This document shows positions 1,827 through 11,273 of a stretch of 20,123 nucleotides of DNA, piece after piece. The first letter of the stretch is position 1. Every line of letters begins with the position of its first letter. The position numbers and the translations under genes were made by a program. This DNA is from a virus: the IMG/VR virus record IMGVR_UViG_3300027911_000079, positions 1-20,123 of that record. The stretch is one strand, 5' to 3'. The notes under the pieces were generated by a model that was not told the origin of the DNA, searched no databases, and saw nothing but the letters and a program-made list of their open reading frames with translations.

Positions 1827-2609
1827 GTGAAAACATACTATAATGAAATAGAACCATACGCTGCGCAATGGCTCCGCAATTTGATTGCTGGAGGGTACAT
1901 AGCGCCGGGCGACGTGGATGAACGTGACATCAGGGACGTTAGGCCGGATGACCTTAAAGGTTACGTGCAATGCCATTTCTTTGCCGGGCTCGGAGGCTGG
2001 AGTCATGCGCTCCGCCTTGCCGGATGGCCCGACGATCGCCACGTATGGACAGGCTCTTGCCCGTGCCAGCCATTTTCCGTGGCGGGCAAGAAGCGAGGCT
2101 TTGCCGACAACCGGCACCTGCGGCCCGAATGGTTCCGGCTTATCCGCGAGTGCGGTCCTGCAACGGTCTTTGGAGAGCAAGTTGCGAGTGCAGTTGATTG
2201 GCTCAGTCTTGTGCGCGGTGACTTGGAAAGCATGGGTTACATCGTCGGGGCAATGCCGATCGAAGCCGCGTGCGCGGGTGCGTTCCATCTCCGGAACCGC
2301 TATTGGTTTGTGGCCGACGCCAGATACGATGGCAGGGCCGCACGGCACAAGGGGCATCAGTACGAATCCGGCGCATCAATCGGCCAGAGATTTGCAGGCA
2401 ACGACGTGGGCGACTCCCGTAGCGCGGGATTGGCGATCGGATCGCTCGCAGAAGACGGGCGAGGAACTATACGGCATGAAAGGCCGTCCTCTGGCACGGC
2501 AGGCAATGGAAGCGGCAACCTGGGTTTCCCCAATAGCGACCGATGCGCATCGGGGAGTGCTACCGCCTCGTCCACACGACACGGGCATTCCGCTCTCGCA
2601 GCAGATTGA
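1827..2609 (+). CDS. DNA cytosine-C5 methyltransferase (Dcm type), cut by an in-frame TGA
   Basis: This enzyme family transfers a methyl group from SAM to cytosine C5 in DNA. From the GTG start (weak AGAGA upstream), the frame shows motif I FFAGLGG (residues 51-57), the catalytic PCQPFS loop (79-84, Cys80), FGEQV (115-119, in place of the usual ENV) and HLRNRYWFVAD (154-164, motif VIII). A variable target-recognition-like stretch follows. The frame then meets TGA at 2607-2609. Directly after it, the same frame resumes with WLQCADGKLRPVKPG and the motif X region GNAIVPQVA, so the gene is a full-length methyltransferase with one stop. Without readthrough the 260-aa product lacks motif X and is probably inactive. 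A second conserved frame overlaps it (1918-2790). The likely role is protection of phage DNA from host restriction. Confidence 0.75.
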   Translation: MKTYYNEIEPYAAQWLRNLIAGGYIAPGDVDERDIRDVRPDDLKGYVQCHFFAGLGGWSHALRLAGWPDDRHVWTGSCPCQPFSVAGKKRGFADNRHLRPEWFRLIRECGPATVFGEQVASAVDWLSLVRGDLESMGYIVGAMPIEAACAGAFHLRNRYWFVADARYDGRAARHKGHQYESGASIGQRFAGNDVGDSRSAGLAIGSLAEDGRGTIRHERPSSGTAGNGSGNLGFPNSDRCASGSATASSTRHGHSALAAD

Positions 2610-2790
2610 GGCAACATTGAATGGCTCCAATGTGCAGACGGAAAACTTAGGCCAGTTAAACCCGGAATTCGTCTGTTGGCTCATGGGGTACCCGCAAGAG
2701 TGGGTAAATTGCGCGCCCTCGGCAATGCCATCGTCCCGCAAGTCGCGGCAGAATTCATTAAAGCATGCTTTCCCCTGGAGGCAGGCATGA
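1918..2790 (+). CDS. Overlapping (+1 frame) phage methyltransferase-associated protein, 290 aa
   Basis: This uninterrupted frame is shifted by one base from the cytosine methyltransferase and lies over nearly all of it. Its protein resembles a phage family often labelled DNA methyltransferase. It has SLPGSEAGVMRSALPDGPT, LQRSLESKLR, TWKAW, repeated WxTP or WATP elements (LWPTPDTM, TWATPVARDW, TWVSPIATDA) and the end LNPEFVCWLMGYPQEW...PSSRKS. Recognition of the family is from memory. Its TGA overlaps the ATG of the next gene (ATGA at 2787-2790), a junction also used at 2936, 3241, 7167 and 7917, which supports real translation. ATG 1948 is an alternative start (MTLKVTC). The C-terminus KHAFPWRQA comes from the palindromic repeat. 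Its function is unknown. Confidence 0.5.
   Translation: MNVTSGTLGRMTLKVTCNAISLPGSEAGVMRSALPDGPTIATYGQALARASHFPWRARSEALPTTGTCGPNGSGLSASAVLQRSLESKLRVQLIGSVLCAVTWKAWVTSSGQCRSKPRARVRSISGTAIGLWPTPDTMAGPHGTRGISTNPAHQSARDLQATTWATPVARDWRSDRSQKTGEELYGMKGRPLARQAMEAATWVSPIATDAHRGVLPPRPHDTGIPLSQQIEATLNGSNVQTENLGQLNPEFVCWLMGYPQEWVNCAPSAMPSSRKSRQNSLKHAFPWRQA
2610..2786 (+). pseudogene. C-terminal part of the cytosine methyltransferase, behind the TGA
   Basis: In the frame of the methyltransferase begun at 1827, the bases after TGA 2607-2609 read GNIEWLQCADGKLRPVKPG and then LAHGVPARVGKLRALG with NAIVPQVAAEFIKACF. The second part is motif X, which packs against the SAM-binding site and is needed for a complete fold. 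This fragment has no plausible start (a TTG at 2676 only) and no ribosome site, so alone it is unlikely to be made. It would be used only through readthrough of the TGA or in a relative without the stop. The open frame continues past 2786 into the gene starting at 2787. Confidence 0.6.
2760..2771. repeat. AAAGCATGCTTT palindrome, copy 2
   Basis: A 12-bp perfect palindrome at the end of the methyltransferase locus. It is followed by CCCCTGGAGGCAGGCATGA, which provides the ribosome site and ATGA junction for the gene at 2787. Confidence 0.75.
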
Positions 2791-2939
2791 GCTACGAAGA
2801 AACTGGTATCTGTGCTTGCGGGAAAGCGGCAATGGATGGCATACGGTGCCGTCTGGACCCGCCCCCATGGCTGCCTCTGCCAAGCCCGGCGGAGGCGCCG
2901 CCCATAAAGCATGCTTTTCCTTGGGAGCCACAGGCATGA
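2787..2939 (+). CDS. Small Cys-containing hypothetical protein, 50 aa
   Basis: CTGGAGG precedes the ATG, and the ATGA overlap couples it to the 1918 frame. The protein begins MSYEETGICACGKAAMDGIR, has Cys at residues 9, 11 and 21, then a Pro-rich part (DPPPWLPLPSPAEAPP) and the tail IKHAFPWEPQA. Its reading frame is also the continuation of the cytosine methyltransferase frame, so it could be a C-terminal extension rather than a separate gene. The TGA again overlaps the ATG of the next gene. I recognise no family. Confidence 0.5.
   Translation: MSYEETGICACGKAAMDGIRCRLDPPPWLPLPSPAEAPPIKHAFPWEPQA
2906..2917. repeat. AAAGCATGCTTT palindrome, copy 3
   Basis: A 12-bp palindrome followed by TCCTTGGGAGCCACAGGCATGA. 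It is arranged like copy 2: palindrome, CCTGG or CCTTGG, ribosome site, CAGGCATGA junction. Confidence 0.75.
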
Positions 2940-3244
2940 CTTTCCCTTGGCAGGCTAGCGAACGTTCGCTAGAAGAAACCGTGCGCGCAATCCAAGCGGA
3001 TATGCTATTCGCAGTCGGCCATACGGCCGTCCTGGTCCGTAGTAGCATGCCGGAATTGCGTACGGTCGCAAATACGGCCCGGGGGCAGGAAATACCGCAA
3101 GGATTGTGCACCTATAACGACGGCTCGACAGTAGAATTCCAAGATATCGGCATGCCGCAAATCAACGTTCCCACCATGACGATGCATGAGTTGGTACAGG
3201 CTGTGCATGCCAAAGCGACAGAATTGGGATTATGGCTGCCATGA
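2936..3244 (+). CDS. Hypothetical protein, 102 aa
   Basis: It starts in an ATGA overlap with the previous gene, with TTGGGAG about 12 bases upstream. The protein begins MTFPWQASERSLEETVRAIQ and contains ADMLFAVGHTAVLVRSSMPE, TARGQEIPQGLCTY and a C-terminal helix HELVQAVHAKATELGLWLP. It has one Cys and no membrane segment or signal peptide. I do not recognise a family. Its stop overlaps the ATG of the adenine-methyltransferase-like gene in another ATGA, so the two are probably translated together. Confidence 0.7.
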   Translation: MTFPWQASERSLEETVRAIQADMLFAVGHTAVLVRSSMPELRTVANTARGQEIPQGLCTYNDGSTVEFQDIGMPQINVPTMTMHELVQAVHAKATELGLWLP

Positions 3245-3789
3245 CAACTGTCGCATCCGGATACGAACGAGAGCCGAATGATCTGTACGAAACGGAACCT
3301 TGGGCGACAAGAGTGCTGTTGCGACGGTTCCCGTCCGTACGGGGGCGTAACATCTGGGAACCCGCAGCCGGTAACCACAAGATCGCCGACGTATTGCGTT
3401 GGGAGGGTGCAAACGTACATGCGTCGGACATAGTGCAGTATGACAGAAAACACGATGGCATTTTGGATTTTCTGAAAGTACCGTCACCACAGACGCCATA
3501 TGACATAGTTACCAATCCGCCGTATGGACCAGGCAACAGGATTGCAGCGCAATTTGCGCGGTTAGCGCTGCAACGAACTGACAATTGGATCGCGTTGCTC
3601 ATGCCGGCGATATTTGACTTTGGCAAGAGTCGTCGCGACTTATTTGCCGATAACCCGCGTTTTGCCTTCAAAATTGCCCTAGTGGACAGAATTCAGTGGT
3701 TCGACGGGGAACATGGCGGAACGCAAAACCATGCGTGGTACGTGTGGAAACCGATTAACGTGCCGATTCTGTACTATGAGGGGAAATAA
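3241..3789 (+). CDS. SAM-dependent DNA adenine methyltransferase-like protein, 182 aa
   Basis: The protein has a class I methyltransferase core. EPAAG at residues 40-44 matches the SAM-binding motif I, D63 lies in the expected acidic position after the second strand, and TNPPYG (91-96) is the NPPY catalytic motif of N6-adenine (or N4-cytosine) amino-methyltransferases. Motif I before NPPY gives the gamma/alpha order. At 182 aa it is only a catalytic core with no target-recognition domain, so target choice may be loose or need a partner. I chose ATG 3241 for the ATGA coupling. ATG 3232 in the same frame adds three residues. It sits in the same transcription unit as the cytosine methyltransferase, consistent with genome modification against restriction. 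Confidence 0.8.
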   Translation: MTTVASGYEREPNDLYETEPWATRVLLRRFPSVRGRNIWEPAAGNHKIADVLRWEGANVHASDIVQYDRKHDGILDFLKVPSPQTPYDIVTNPPYGPGNRIAAQFARLALQRTDNWIALLMPAIFDFGKSRRDLFADNPRFAFKIALVDRIQWFDGEHGGTQNHAWYVWKPINVPILYYEGK

Positions 3790-3790
3790 C

Positions 3791-4102
3791 ATGCGTTGCT
3801 GGCCTCTGGACGTCATCCGCACATCTGCGTTGCTACCGGCCCATTGCGCATGGGAGCTGCGAATAGTACATGAAACGCGTCATTTGTCGCAAATGGCAAT
3901 TAACGCCTGCTGGCACGTAGCGCGACGTACTGAACCGGTTGAGATGACTGGGCTCGTCATGGTAAAATCAGATGACGATCTGGCACCAAAATTCACCTAC
4001 TTGCGAGAACCGCCATTCGAACAATGGAAACGGCTGGACCGCATCGTCATCGTGGACGCATTTCACGGCGGTCTTGAAATAGTAATGAGCACATCGCATT
4101 AA
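3791..4102 (+). CDS. Hypothetical protein, 103 aa
   Basis: GAGGGGAAATAAC gives a ribosome site directly before ATG 3791, two bases after the previous stop. A longer in-frame reading back to 3713 is a shadow of the methyltransferase gene. The protein begins MRCWPLDVIRTSALLPAHCA, has Cys and Trp scattered through it, and ends RLDRIVIVDAFHGGLEIVMS plus TSH. The balance of residues suggests a compact alpha/beta protein. I recognise no family. Its TAA is at the edge of palindrome copy 4. Confidence 0.7.
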   Translation: MRCWPLDVIRTSALLPAHCAWELRIVHETRHLSQMAINACWHVARRTEPVEMTGLVMVKSDDDLAPKFTYLREPPFEQWKRLDRIVIVDAFHGGLEIVMSTSH

Positions 4103-4112
4103 AGCATGCTTT
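4101..4112. repeat. AAAGCATGCTTT palindrome, copy 4
   Basis: The palindrome starts inside the TAA stop of the 3791 gene and is followed by TTCACGGTAG before the helicase ATG at 4132. No strong Shine-Dalgarno sequence is seen between them. Confidence 0.75.
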
Positions 4113-4131: not shown

Positions 4132-5742
4132 ATGTTCGTCCCAAGAAAACATCAAATTGAATGCGTACGCGCACTCACGTCGTATAGCGACGGTCGATTC
4201 AGCGTCGGCGAAGCATGCGTCGCATCCGGCAAGTCCGGGATGTTGGGGATGCTCGCCACGCATTACAGCCAAGCTGGCCGCGTATTGATCGTTGCGCATA
4301 ACAAAGAACTGGTAAAGCAAAATGCAGCAGCGGCACGTTTGCTAGGACTGAACCCCGGCATTTGTTCGTCATCGATCGGCACCAATGCGTTTGCGCGCGT
4401 AACGGTCGGGACGATCGGCACCATCATAAACAGGGTGCGCTTGTTCCGGGACGTTGTCGCCATCCTGGTAGACGAGGTTCACCGCGTGCCGCCAAGCAAG
4501 TCCTCACAGTATCGCTGTCTGTTCGACGAGATACCGCACGCCAAGATTCACGGGCTCACAGGTACGCCATTTCGCGCGGACGGGAGCGGTGATCTTGAAC
4601 GAACCTTTGGCCCCATAGTATTCCGATACGCATTTCTGGATGCGTTGCGGGACGGGTACGTCAAACCGCTCGTACCGGTTGATGCCGGAGAGGATGAAAC
4701 CATAGACGTTGAAGGCTTGAAGACTACAGCCGGAGACTTTGATCTCGACGAAATGGCTCCCAGAGCGATGAAACTTGCTCCGAGCCACGCACGTACAGTT
4801 GTAGATGTCATGCAAAAAATGAATCGGCGTCGTGTGCTCGTGTTTTGCTGCAATATCGCACATGTCGATAGATTAGAGCAGGAATTTCGTAAAATCGGCA
4901 TGAAGGTACTCGGTGTTCATTCTCGGTCGGAACTTGGGAAACGCGACAAGTCAGTTGAGGCATTCCGATCCGGGCACGTCCCTATACTCGTTTCGTGCAA
5001 CATGTTCACAACTGGATTCGATGTGCCGGATATCGACTATCTTGCATTCTGCCGAGCGACAAAGTCAGCGGTCCTGTATGCGCAAGGCTTGGGACGAGGT
5101 GCGCGACCGACGCCATACGCGGTCAACTGCCTGGTATCCGACTTTGGCGGCAACATACAACGGCACGGCACCCTGGACGCAGTTATGGCGTCCCCTGGGC
5201 GCATGCTCATATGCGACGCAGAGCCGTGCCGCACAGAATGGGAAACATGGGAGAGTGGCAGAACGTGCCCCGGATGCGGAACGCTGCACAGAAGCGCACC
5301 GACATGTAAAGCATGCTTTGAAAAATTCGATCCGCACTTTCACGGCATGCGTTGTCCACATTGCGGTACACAGCAATCAACCATAAAACAGTGTGCCGCT
5401 TGTGAACAACCATACGCAGCATTTTTGCACCCGACGTGCCCGTTTTGCGGGTTCGACAACAGCGCAGTTACGTCGCCTGGTAAAGATTTGAAGACTCGCG
5501 GAGGTGAACACGAAGCTGTAAACGTCCACAAAATCATCGAAAGCGATCCTTGGCAAGCTATCGTATCGCCACCGATCAAGCGGAATGGTGGCTGGTTACT
5601 TACGACGAAATTCACGACAGCGCTATGGAACTATGAAATACTGCCAGACGGACCGCATTCGGTTTATCTCAAACGATCGCCGAACGGTCGATACATCGCA
5701 GCCGGAATTTACGACGTAAACGGACAGATCCACCAGAGGTAA
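4132..5742 (+). CDS. Superfamily 2 DEAD/DEAH-type helicase with zinc-ribbon C-terminus, 536 aa
   Basis: The protein is an ATP-driven nucleic-acid translocase or helicase, probably acting in phage replication or recombination. N-terminal RecA domain: PRKHQIECV, Walker A ASGKSG (K34), DEVH (114-117, motif II) and LTGTPFRADG (from 142, motif III). Second RecA domain: VLVFCCN, TTGFDVPDIDYLAFCRAT (motif V) and QGLGRGARP (from about 318, motif VI with arginine fingers). Residues about 361-441 hold six Cys pairs (CDAEPC, CPGC, CKAC, CPHC, CAAC, CPFC), three tandem zinc ribbons. A C-terminal domain of about 95 residues has no obvious match. The fold resembles phage helicases of the UvsW/RAD25/type III restriction R-subunit group. 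The ribosome site is weak. Palindrome copy 5 encodes CKACF in the ribbons. Confidence 0.92.
   Translation: MFVPRKHQIECVRALTSYSDGRFSVGEACVASGKSGMLGMLATHYSQAGRVLIVAHNKELVKQNAAAARLLGLNPGICSSSIGTNAFARVTVGTIGTIINRVRLFRDVVAILVDEVHRVPPSKSSQYRCLFDEIPHAKIHGLTGTPFRADGSGDLERTFGPIVFRYAFLDALRDGYVKPLVPVDAGEDETIDVEGLKTTAGDFDLDEMAPRAMKLAPSHARTVVDVMQKMNRRRVLVFCCNIAHVDRLEQEFRKIGMKVLGVHSRSELGKRDKSVEAFRSGHVPILVSCNMFTTGFDVPDIDYLAFCRATKSAVLYAQGLGRGARPTPYAVNCLVSDFGGNIQRHGTLDAVMASPGRMLICDAEPCRTEWETWESGRTCPGCGTLHRSAPTCKACFEKFDPHFHGMRCPHCGTQQSTIKQCAACEQPYAAFLHPTCPFCGFDNSAVTSPGKDLKTRGGEHEAVNVHKIIESDPWQAIVSPPIKRNGGWLLTTKFTTALWNYEILPDGPHSVYLKRSPNGRYIAAGIYDVNGQIHQR
5308..5319. repeat. AAAGCATGCTTT palindrome, copy 5, inside the helicase gene
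   Basis: The only full copy inside a clearly essential coding region. In frame it encodes KACF of a zinc ribbon (TGT AAA GCA TGC TTT). A shorter 10-bp copy, AAGCATGCTT, lies at 5859-5868. Confidence 0.6.
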
Positions 5743-5745
5743 GAC

Positions 5746-5910
5746 ATGCGATACTGGTACCATCCCGAAAGCGACTGTTTGTGGACAGGTCCGGACAGTA
5801 CAGATGAATGTGCACGCGGAGATGTCCTGGTTGAAGAACTGGACGAACAAGAGTATTTAAGCATGCTTTTTAAGACACCAACCAACGATGGGAGACCACG
5901 ATGTATGTAG
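5746..5910 (+). CDS. Small hypothetical protein, 54 aa
   Basis: AGAGG lies six bases before the ATG, just past the helicase stop. The protein begins MRYWYHPESDCLWTGPDSTD, is acidic in the middle (DVLVEELDEQEYLSMLF) and ends GRPRCM. The 10-bp core AAGCATGCTT of the regional palindrome is in frame here, encoding the LSMLF part. The end overlaps the next gene by ten bases. HPESDC...WTGP at the N-terminus resembles the YCHPHEE part of the next protein, so the two may be distant relatives. The function is unknown. Confidence 0.6.
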   Translation: MRYWYHPESDCLWTGPDSTDECARGDVLVEELDEQEYLSMLFKTPTNDGRPRCM

Positions 5911-9923: not shown

Positions 9924-11273
9924 ATGCACATCGTGACAGGCGATTGTCGTGACGCGCTGGCCGTCCTGCCGGCAGAGAGTGTGCATTGCGTGGTGACCTC
10001 TCCGCCCTATTGGGGGCTGCGGGACTACGGCATTGCGCCGACGGTGTGGGGCCGGGAGACGGGATGCGCGCATGTGTGGGGCGATGAAATTATTCGCCGC
10101 GGTCCAGAGTGCGCCTTGTCTCAGGCAGAGCTTTCGGCCATTCGCGAGGAAGAAGAAGAACGGCTTGGTTCTTACGATGAACCGCCACCGAAAATAGAAA
10201 AACCAAAAGCCGGCGCCCGCTGTCGATGCTGCGGCGCCTGGTGCGGCGCCCACGGCCTGGAGCCGACCATTGATCTTTATCTGCGCAATGCTGTCGAGGT
10301 GTTCCGTGCGGTGCGTCGCGTGCTGCGGCCGGACGGGACGCTGTGGCTCAACCTTGGGGACAGCTACGCCCACGGCACGACCACTAACCGCAAGCCATCC
10401 GAAGCTAATGGTAAGCATGGGTACTGGACATCACCGCATATCGTCAATCGCATTGATGGAAGCAGCGACGGCCTCAAAACCAAGGACCTTTGCGGCGTCC
10501 CGTGGCGTGTTGCCTTCGCACTCCAGGCCGATGGCTGGTATCTGCGCCAAGACATAATCTGGCACAAGCCGAATCCGATGCCGGAGAGTACGACGGATCG
10601 CTGTACTAAAGCGCACGAATATCTGTTCCTACTCACCAAGAGGACGCGATACTTTTTTGACGCAGAAGCGATCAAAGAAGACGCCATATATGCCGATTCA
10701 GGACGATCCAGCGCAACCAAAAACAGCCTGAAAGCCAATCGCAAACGCAACGGCAACGACGGTAACGCAGAATCGTTTCGCGCCATCACAGCCAAACGCA
10801 ACAAGCGCTCAGTGTGGACCGTCGCCACCGCACCGTTCCCGGAAGCTCACTTTGCCACGTTCCCGCCGAAGCTGATAGAACCGTGCATCAAGGCCGGTAC
10901 TAGCGAACACGGATGCTGTGGAGCATGCGGGGCGCCATGGCGGCGTGTGACGGAATCTAAATTCATTCCGCAACAGGACGTAAGCTTGGAGCGTGGCGTC
11001 AGAGGCGCTAATGGCCAAAAAGCAATGGACGAAAGCAGTGGACGGGAAGGCTCCTTGCGCGGAACTACGACGGCGGTGACAATAGGATGGCGTCCGAGTT
11101 GTGCATGCAATGCTAACGTCGTCCCGTGTACTGTACTCGATCCATTCGGCGGTGCCGGTACTACAGGACTCGTTTGTAGACATTTACAGCGCAAAGTCAT
11201 TTTGATTGAAGCAAATCCAACCTACGTCGAAATGGCGCGAAAACGCATTCAACCGTATCCATGGGAATTCTGA
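9924..11273 (+). CDS. Beta-class DNA N4/N6 amino-methyltransferase, 449 aa
   Basis: The enzyme transfers methyl from SAM to an exocyclic amino group in DNA. The N-terminus has GDCRDALAVLPAESV and VVTSPPYWGLRDYG (SPPYW, motif IV). Near the C-terminus is LDPFGGAGTTGL (about residues 405-416, SAM-binding motif I), followed by VILIEANPTYVEMARKRI. Motif IV before motif I is the beta order. The SPPYWGLRDY form occurs in N4-cytosine and N6-adenine enzymes, so the base cannot be decided here. The middle contains two Cys clusters (CRCCGAWCG and CCGACGAPW) that may bind zinc within the target-recognition region. The C-terminus is PYPWEF. It sits between SSB and polymerase, pointing to modification during replication. 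The stop overlaps the possible polymerase start. Confidence 0.92.
   Translation: MHIVTGDCRDALAVLPAESVHCVVTSPPYWGLRDYGIAPTVWGRETGCAHVWGDEIIRRGPECALSQAELSAIREEEEERLGSYDEPPPKIEKPKAGARCRCCGAWCGAHGLEPTIDLYLRNAVEVFRAVRRVLRPDGTLWLNLGDSYAHGTTTNRKPSEANGKHGYWTSPHIVNRIDGSSDGLKTKDLCGVPWRVAFALQADGWYLRQDIIWHKPNPMPESTTDRCTKAHEYLFLLTKRTRYFFDAEAIKEDAIYADSGRSSATKNSLKANRKRNGNDGNAESFRAITAKRNKRSVWTVATAPFPEAHFATFPPKLIEPCIKAGTSEHGCCGACGAPWRRVTESKFIPQQDVSLERGVRGANGQKAMDESSGREGSLRGTTTAVTIGWRPSCACNANVVPCTVLDPFGGAGTTGLVCRHLQRKVILIEANPTYVEMARKRIQPYPWEF

Follow-up and report, generated by a model that had tools for sequence, protein, structure and literature searches.

The window, a stretch of 20,123 nucleotides from the IMG/VR virus record IMGVR_UViG_3300027911_000079, carries a C5-cytosine methyltransferase locus in which two frames of one strand resemble phage proteins (Table 1). 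We call the frame starting at GTG 1827 alpha (frame 0) and the +1 frame beta. A first-pass annotation had recognized a methyltransferase in frame 0, and this holds: FAGLGG (motif I), PCQPFS (IV), FGEQV (VI) and RNRYWF (VIII) occur in order, with matches to Pfam DNA_methylase (E 3.7e-12) and phrog_363 (E 4.9e-62). Relatives of alpha in the PDB are HhaI, which was aligned, and HaeIII. Past the TGA at 2607-2609, frame 0 still reads WLQCADGK and GNAIVPQVA (GNAIVPQVAAEF, the motif X region), as had been noticed, and this part matches phrog_363 separately (E 1.3e-9). The +1 frame, free of stops from a point ahead of ATG 1918 down to the TGA at 2788-2790, does resemble a phage family, matching phrog_1008 (E 7e-24) and also phrog_31772; its usual start in the family, however, is at alpha codon 37 and not at the place of ATG 1918. 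The bases near 2676-2760 encode both WLMGYPQEW..PSSRKS and LAHGVPARVGKLRALGNAIV. The ATGA at 2787-2790, which links the end of beta to a small downstream ORF, had been thought to favour beta translation; the overlap is present but carries little weight, because most tabulated relatives end beta in other contexts. A Pfam search with the small ORF (2787-2939) returned no match.

Table 1. Features of the methyltransferase locus and of other parts of the window.
Feature	Position	Strand	Basis
Alpha: C5-cytosine methyltransferase, motifs I, IV, VI, VIII, then linker	1827..2609	+	Pfam, phrog_363, PDB relatives
In-frame TGA that in this contig cuts alpha off from its motif X	2607..2609	+	
Alpha frame beyond the TGA: WLQCADGK..GNAIVPQVAAEFIKA, motif X region	2610..2768	+	phrog_363 E 1.3e-9; shuffle test
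Beta, including its stop; may start at ATG 1918 (alpha codon 31) or ATG 1948 (codon 41)	1918..2790	+	phrog_1008, open frame
Dual-coded: alpha motifs I-VIII and N-terminal part of beta	1935..2313	+	Reciprocal shuffles
Predicted target-recognition region of beta, WPTP/WATP..D repeats; frame 0 is an unconstrained linker	2314..2606	+	Reciprocal shuffles
Beta motif-IX-like LNPEFVCWLMGYPQEW; frame-0 motif X ~9 residues later	2655..2705	+	
Small ORF, 50 aa; ATGA overlap with the beta stop, continuous with the alpha frame	2787..2939	+	
Palindrome AAAGCATGCTTT, copies	1800-1811, 2760-2771, 2906-2917, 4101-4112, 5308-5319, 5858-5869		
phrog_799 'DNA methyltransferase' with TNPPYG	3232-3789		
RadD-like helicase	4132-5742		
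N4/N6-type methyltransferase-like gene	9924-11273		Pfam N6_N4_Mtase, E 1.8e-38

Two repeated elements run through this part of the window. The perfect palindrome AAAGCATGCTTT is found in five exact copies and one single-mismatch copy, all sharing one axis, where 0.04 would be expected. The start codons at 1827, 2787, 2937 and 4132 each have an exact copy 14-31 bases upstream, so the element could serve as an operator or belong to a translation-initiation cassette. The peptide FPW[EQR] recurs at the ends of the ORFs 1126-1320 (QQKFPWEA), 1918-2790 (LKHAFPWRQA) and 2787-2939 (IKHAFPWEPQA), in each case directly before the stop codon, and MTFPWQA at the start of the ORF from 2937 is a further copy. 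This recurrence is partly explained by the repeated DNA element.

Tblastn searches of annotated phages gave matches in 248 records for beta and in 401 for alpha. Wherever both matched in a fetched locus, beta was in the +1 frame of alpha, except in L040, where an apparent single indel shifts the frames; L185 looks similar. In 209 of 211 non-identical loci an open +1 frame spans at least codons 45-160; in none does the +2 frame do so. When 156 loci were picked by the alpha protein alone, to avoid selection by beta, +1 was open across the catalytic region in 155. Beta-like modules are present in +1 in distant phages as well, namely a marine phage (38% GC), Paenibacillus phage Leyra and the vequintavirus CarlMeissner, and also in Mycobacterium phage Hades and Klebsiella phage BUCT711. 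At the family level, motifs I-VIII and X are in the frame of the large polypeptide and motif IX is in that of the small.

One account of an open +1 frame would be that alpha is the sole gene, and that +1 stays open and looks conserved through the conservation of alpha in GC-rich DNA. When synonymous codons were shuffled within each gene, holding the alpha protein and its codon counts, codons 41-160 of the 156 alpha-selected loci were expected to contain 224.8 ± 11.3 stops in +1, and 2 were observed. The +2 frame of the same loci, used as a control, was not depleted (702 stops vs. 725.6 ± 22.2 expected), and an earlier set of 58 loci had given 1 stop in +1 vs. 103.6 expected. The window taken singly has zero +1 stops in codons 38-260 (P = 0.028, alpha-preserving codon shuffles). 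Synonymous positions point the same way. At four-fold degenerate sites of alpha, identity within the overlap is 0.457 at 60% alpha identity and 0.815 at 90%, vs. 0.338 and 0.560 in codons 3-33, and conservation is higher inside the overlap at every identity level having many sites. Third-position substitution rates of alpha, from 52 independent close pairs, are 0.308 in codons 1-33, 0.274 in 39-75, 0.179 in 76-115 and 0.151 in 116-160; the linker and motif X yielded no usable pairs for these counts. The rates fall along the overlap, so beta is weakly constrained at its beginning and strongly over motifs VI-VIII.

The two frames of the window were then scored against each other's shuffles. A beta profile from which the window and its closest relatives had been left out gave the +1 frame 170.6 bits over codons 38-162 (108.6 ± 10.0 in alpha-preserving shuffles), 26.8 bits over the linker (3.4 ± 2.8) and 85.5 bits over the motif X region (24.7 ± 9.6), and in each part none of 500 shuffles reached the observed score. 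In the reverse test, with an alpha profile lacking the window and 500 beta-preserving shuffles, frame 0 scored 241.8 bits over motifs I-VIII (86.0 ± 13.8) and 82.9 bits over the motif X region (44.3 ± 7.7; 0/500 reach), but showed no excess over the linker (-0.3 bits vs. -1.3 ± 1.7; 106/500 reach). Both frames are therefore conserved over motifs I-VIII and X, and beta alone in between.

Dual coding, the central claim of the first-pass annotation, is thus supported by stop depletion, synonymous constraint and reciprocal shuffles. The homologs of beta do not behave as mere shadows of alpha: beta exceeds the shuffles in all three parts of the window, and its recognition/IX module is also found in single-frame enzymes, in frame with motifs I-VIII. 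The N-terminal +1 score is not clearly above shuffles in 6 of 11 distant loci, with a seventh borderline, as expected if alpha were the only gene. That reading is nevertheless extremely unlikely given the missing +1 stops at fixed alpha protein and codon use, the intact +2 control, a sharp boundary at codon 37-38, and a linker that is constrained in beta and unconstrained in alpha; beta also beats alpha-preserving shuffles in L240 (38% GC), L241, L243 and L245 besides the window. A beta that is purely a shadow of alpha was ruled out by the stop depletion and shuffles, though the N-terminal score is largely shadow in several distant loci. As judged by comparison of these sequences, both frames are shown to be under purifying selection over the overlap.

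Where beta begins can be read from the same stop counts. Codon by codon, +1 stops occur at the expected rates through alpha codon 36, and their depletion sets in at codon 38 (1 vs. 42.8 expected in codons 41-60; 1 vs. 193.7 in codons 101-155). A +1 ATG stands at alpha codon 37 in 142 of 186 anchored loci, and after dereplication in 31 of the 40 loci whose amino acids allow it, where 17.7 would be expected. There is no clear enrichment of ATGs at codons 31, 41, 60 and 69. ATG 1918, which is codon 31, was accordingly rejected as a family-wide start (24/42 vs. 17.8 expected). GGAG over codons 33-34, at Shine-Dalgarno distance, is likewise commoner than expected: 17 of 46 dereplicated loci carry it (7.0 expected), as do 92 of 167 loci overall (23.6 expected). 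The codon-37 ATG together with this putative Shine-Dalgarno favours independent initiation rather than frameshifting. The window itself has ACG at the codon-37 site and no GGAG; lacking that ATG, its beta would start at ATG 1918 or ATG 1948, and the RNA structure there is unremarkable (z -1.09).

Beta could instead be the tail of a fusion protein, reached from alpha by a programmed +1 frameshift near codon 37 or near motif VIII. A shift near codon 37 would leave an identical boundary of stop depletion, and two actinophage relatives look as though motifs I-VIII were in one frame and the recognition region, IX and X in the next: Gordonia phage Jumbo (L238, 1408-2299) and Mycobacterium phage Peaches (L249, 789-1884). 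The boundary falls, however, at an ATG with a suitably spaced Shine-Dalgarno, both of them enriched; a shift at motif VIII needs no open +1 frame from codon 38; and a second shift would be required to rejoin motif X. We regard a frameshift as unlikely for the family, and internal initiation as the favoured route to beta. Jumbo and Peaches themselves could be frameshift fusions or two genes.

The C-terminal half of beta consists of WPTP/WATP..D repeats followed by the motif LNPxFxxWLMGxP, which in our own comparison resembles motif IX (of the LTPRECARLMGFP type). In Mycobacterium phage Moonbeam, a single chain matches both families, phrog_363 in residues 1-364 and phrog_1008 in residues 203-366. 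In a profile comparison, the WLMG of beta lined up with WMMG in the single-frame methyltransferases of actinophages at E 4e-9 over only 21 columns, so the suggested motif-IX assignment rests on a short match. A strict regular expression for motif IX failed to hit most loci, and we discarded the category counts based on it. Along the DNA, VIII, the recognition region, IX and X follow one another as they do in a one-piece enzyme, and ~9 residues part IX from X; the frame alone differs.

These correspondences bear on whether beta has anything to do with the catalysis of alpha, or is a protein in its own right with an unrelated role, such as that of a regulator or an anti-restriction factor. A PDB search with the beta profile and a Foldseek search with the beta model gave no significant match, much of beta is predicted at low confidence, and in the K1ind phages beta has an annotation of its own, 'Mte8-like protein', all of which would suit an unrelated function. 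Against it, frame 0 of alpha has neither a recognition region nor a convincing motif IX, while beta has counterparts of both at the matching place on the DNA, and single-frame relatives join the same module to motifs I-VIII in one chain. We therefore think a separate function quite improbable.

Structure predictions agree in part with beta as a missing domain of alpha. For alpha of a relative (L014), the AlphaFold2 pLDDT exceeds 90 over most of residues 1-140, drops to 30-48 over the linker, where a small domain would sit, and is followed by a confident C-terminal helix after motif X; M.HhaI structures are the best fold matches. Alpha is thus predicted to fold as a large domain with a disordered linker. 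Beta modeled alone has low confidence (mean pLDDT 60.7), which counts against the two-polypeptide reading, although a helix and hairpin in its N-terminal part are predicted with pLDDT >80. Hand-joined alpha/beta/alpha chimeras, scored against Pfam, rose from 46.7 to 51.0 bits for the window and showed no gain for K1ind2; they were not used as support.

The first-pass annotation had also suggested that beta was born in the alternate frame of a methyltransferase gene. For the WPTP..D/LNPEFVCWLMGYP part this fails: that part appears to be the methyltransferase's own recognition/IX module, which lies between motifs VIII and X and has been displaced into another frame. The C-terminal half of beta is, by this correspondence with the module that single-frame relatives carry in frame, apparently not new-born, and overprinting is limited at most to the N-terminal half. 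The idea survives only as a candidate origin for the part over alpha codons 37 to ~160. This N-terminal part goes beyond the alpha shadow in the same four distant loci (L240, L241, L243 and L245); by phage group, it does so in proteobacterial, Paenibacillus and marine phages, while in actinophage loci its score is not clearly above the shadow.

Layouts vary among lineages. In the single-chain enzymes of Moonbeam (L246, 948-2051) and Neville (L250, 1230-2093), motifs IX and X are in frame 0 and one recognition unit is still in +1, as if the frame of the recognition region toggles between lineages. Where IX and X are both in frame 0 (62 relatives), the depletion of +1 stops is only partial (70 vs. 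120.2 expected). Single-frame actinophage loci were rejected as a clean negative control, being a mixed set: 29 of the 62 have no +1 stops, and some keep a +1 recognition unit.

Annotation varies too. Both frames are annotated in few GenBank records, among them K1ind2 (a methylase and an 'Mte8-like protein'), Xanthomonas phage PhiXhv-28 and Leyra; most name one half only, either alpha or beta, or call one of them hypothetical. In Komagataeibacter phage phiKX2 (L245, 1501-2620) and Cyanophage Cy-LDV1 (L075), alpha is unannotated, a hypothetical gene is placed on the reverse strand over it, and beta stands alone downstream. The PHROG library holds alpha and beta as separate families with the same function, 363 and 1008 ('DNA methyltransferase'), and has no record that the two are frames of one locus. 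In the part of the literature that is openly accessible, we found no description of the arrangement in this phage family.

The copy in the window is atypical of the family. Motif X is joined to the catalytic domain in most relatives; here GNAIVPQVA is in frame but behind the TGA at codon 261, so that alpha is cut before motif X. The usual start signals of beta are missing, and the usual stop of alpha after motif X is replaced by read-through into the 50-residue ORF. All three features would fit an alpha that is decaying or mis-assembled in this contig only, with beta alone still translatable, and we give this reading slightly less than an even chance. The alpha frame behind the TGA nevertheless remains well above beta-preserving shuffles, as described above; with the motif X region still conserved, any loss of alpha would be recent. 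In other loci with a frame-0 stop ahead of the end of beta, the visible cause is mostly a frameshift and not a clean stop. The window copy may thus be defective, may obtain motif X from a reinitiated fragment, or may contain a sequence error, and we found no close copy of the same phage that could decide among these. TGA as a sense codon was set aside, since on inspection other genes in the window end in TGA.

We propose that the locus probably encodes one C5-cytosine methyltransferase as two polypeptides in overlapping frames. Alpha would be the catalytic large domain, with motifs I-VIII, a disordered linker and motif X. Beta would start inside alpha, mostly at the codon-37 ATG with its own Shine-Dalgarno, and would comprise the helix-hairpin segment, the target-recognition repeats and the motif-IX-like end, in effect the small domain. 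The internal start and this division of domains are shown by comparison of relatives, as features predicted from sequence. From them we infer that a single message would yield alpha and beta by separate translation and that the two would form an active enzyme together, which would methylate the phage DNA and so presumably protect it from host restriction. More broadly, we lean toward the view that hundreds of phage and prophage genes annotated 'DNA cytosine methyltransferase' are obligate two-frame heterodimers, their domains co-encoded over nearly the whole gene and the N-terminal helix-hairpin of beta truly overprinted on motifs VI-VIII.

Among known systems M.EcoHK31I comes closest. The gene of its large subunit contains, in an alternate frame, that of its small subunit; this small subunit has ~176 aa and hence starts much later in its alpha. 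M.EcoHK31I, a two-polypeptide C5-methyltransferase of Escherichia coli (YGGCCR), has motifs I-VIII and X in the larger subunit and IX in the smaller, with the recognition domain assigned to the large subunit (PMC3404938), and the title of Lee, Kam and Shaw 1995 (cited in PMC3404938) states that both proteins are needed in vitro. The phage family shares with it a motif IX in the second polypeptide, and in the window the TGA takes motif X off the large one. Unlike in M.EcoHK31I, the recognition-like repeats are in the phage beta, the same stretch of the phage alpha being unconstrained, and the phage beta starts at alpha codon 37 and has ~210-350 aa. Compared by description, the early start and the recognition-like region of beta argue for a variant of the M.EcoHK31I type and not a plain member. 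M.AquI (CYCGRG) is a two-subunit C5-methyltransferase with a natural split between motif VIII and IX-X (PMC3404938), a layout that Jumbo and Peaches resemble. In M.AquI the small subunit holds motif X, whereas in the phage family X stays in the alpha frame, IX is in +1, and the genes overlap almost completely. As in the overprinted lambda pair Rz/Rz1 (the Rz pair is treated in PMC9409062), two same-strand proteins would act together from different frames of one stretch; unlike in Rz/Rz1, alpha and beta would be complementary domains of one enzyme, and part of beta would be a displaced ancestral module.

Gene callers normally discard long overlaps on the same strand, and in this family half of a common phage enzyme has stayed hidden as a result. 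Should activity require alpha as well as beta, many of the phage methyltransferases in the records are only half an enzyme, and alpha cloned alone would look inactive. M.EcoHK31I has been used for engineered split enzymes (PMC3439449), and a large set of naturally split methyltransferases would bear on such designs. The single-frame, divided and nested layouts form a natural series for how an overlapping gene pair arises. If the two-polypeptide reading is true, few conserved pairs of overlapping same-strand genes in double-stranded DNA phages would be as widespread as this family.
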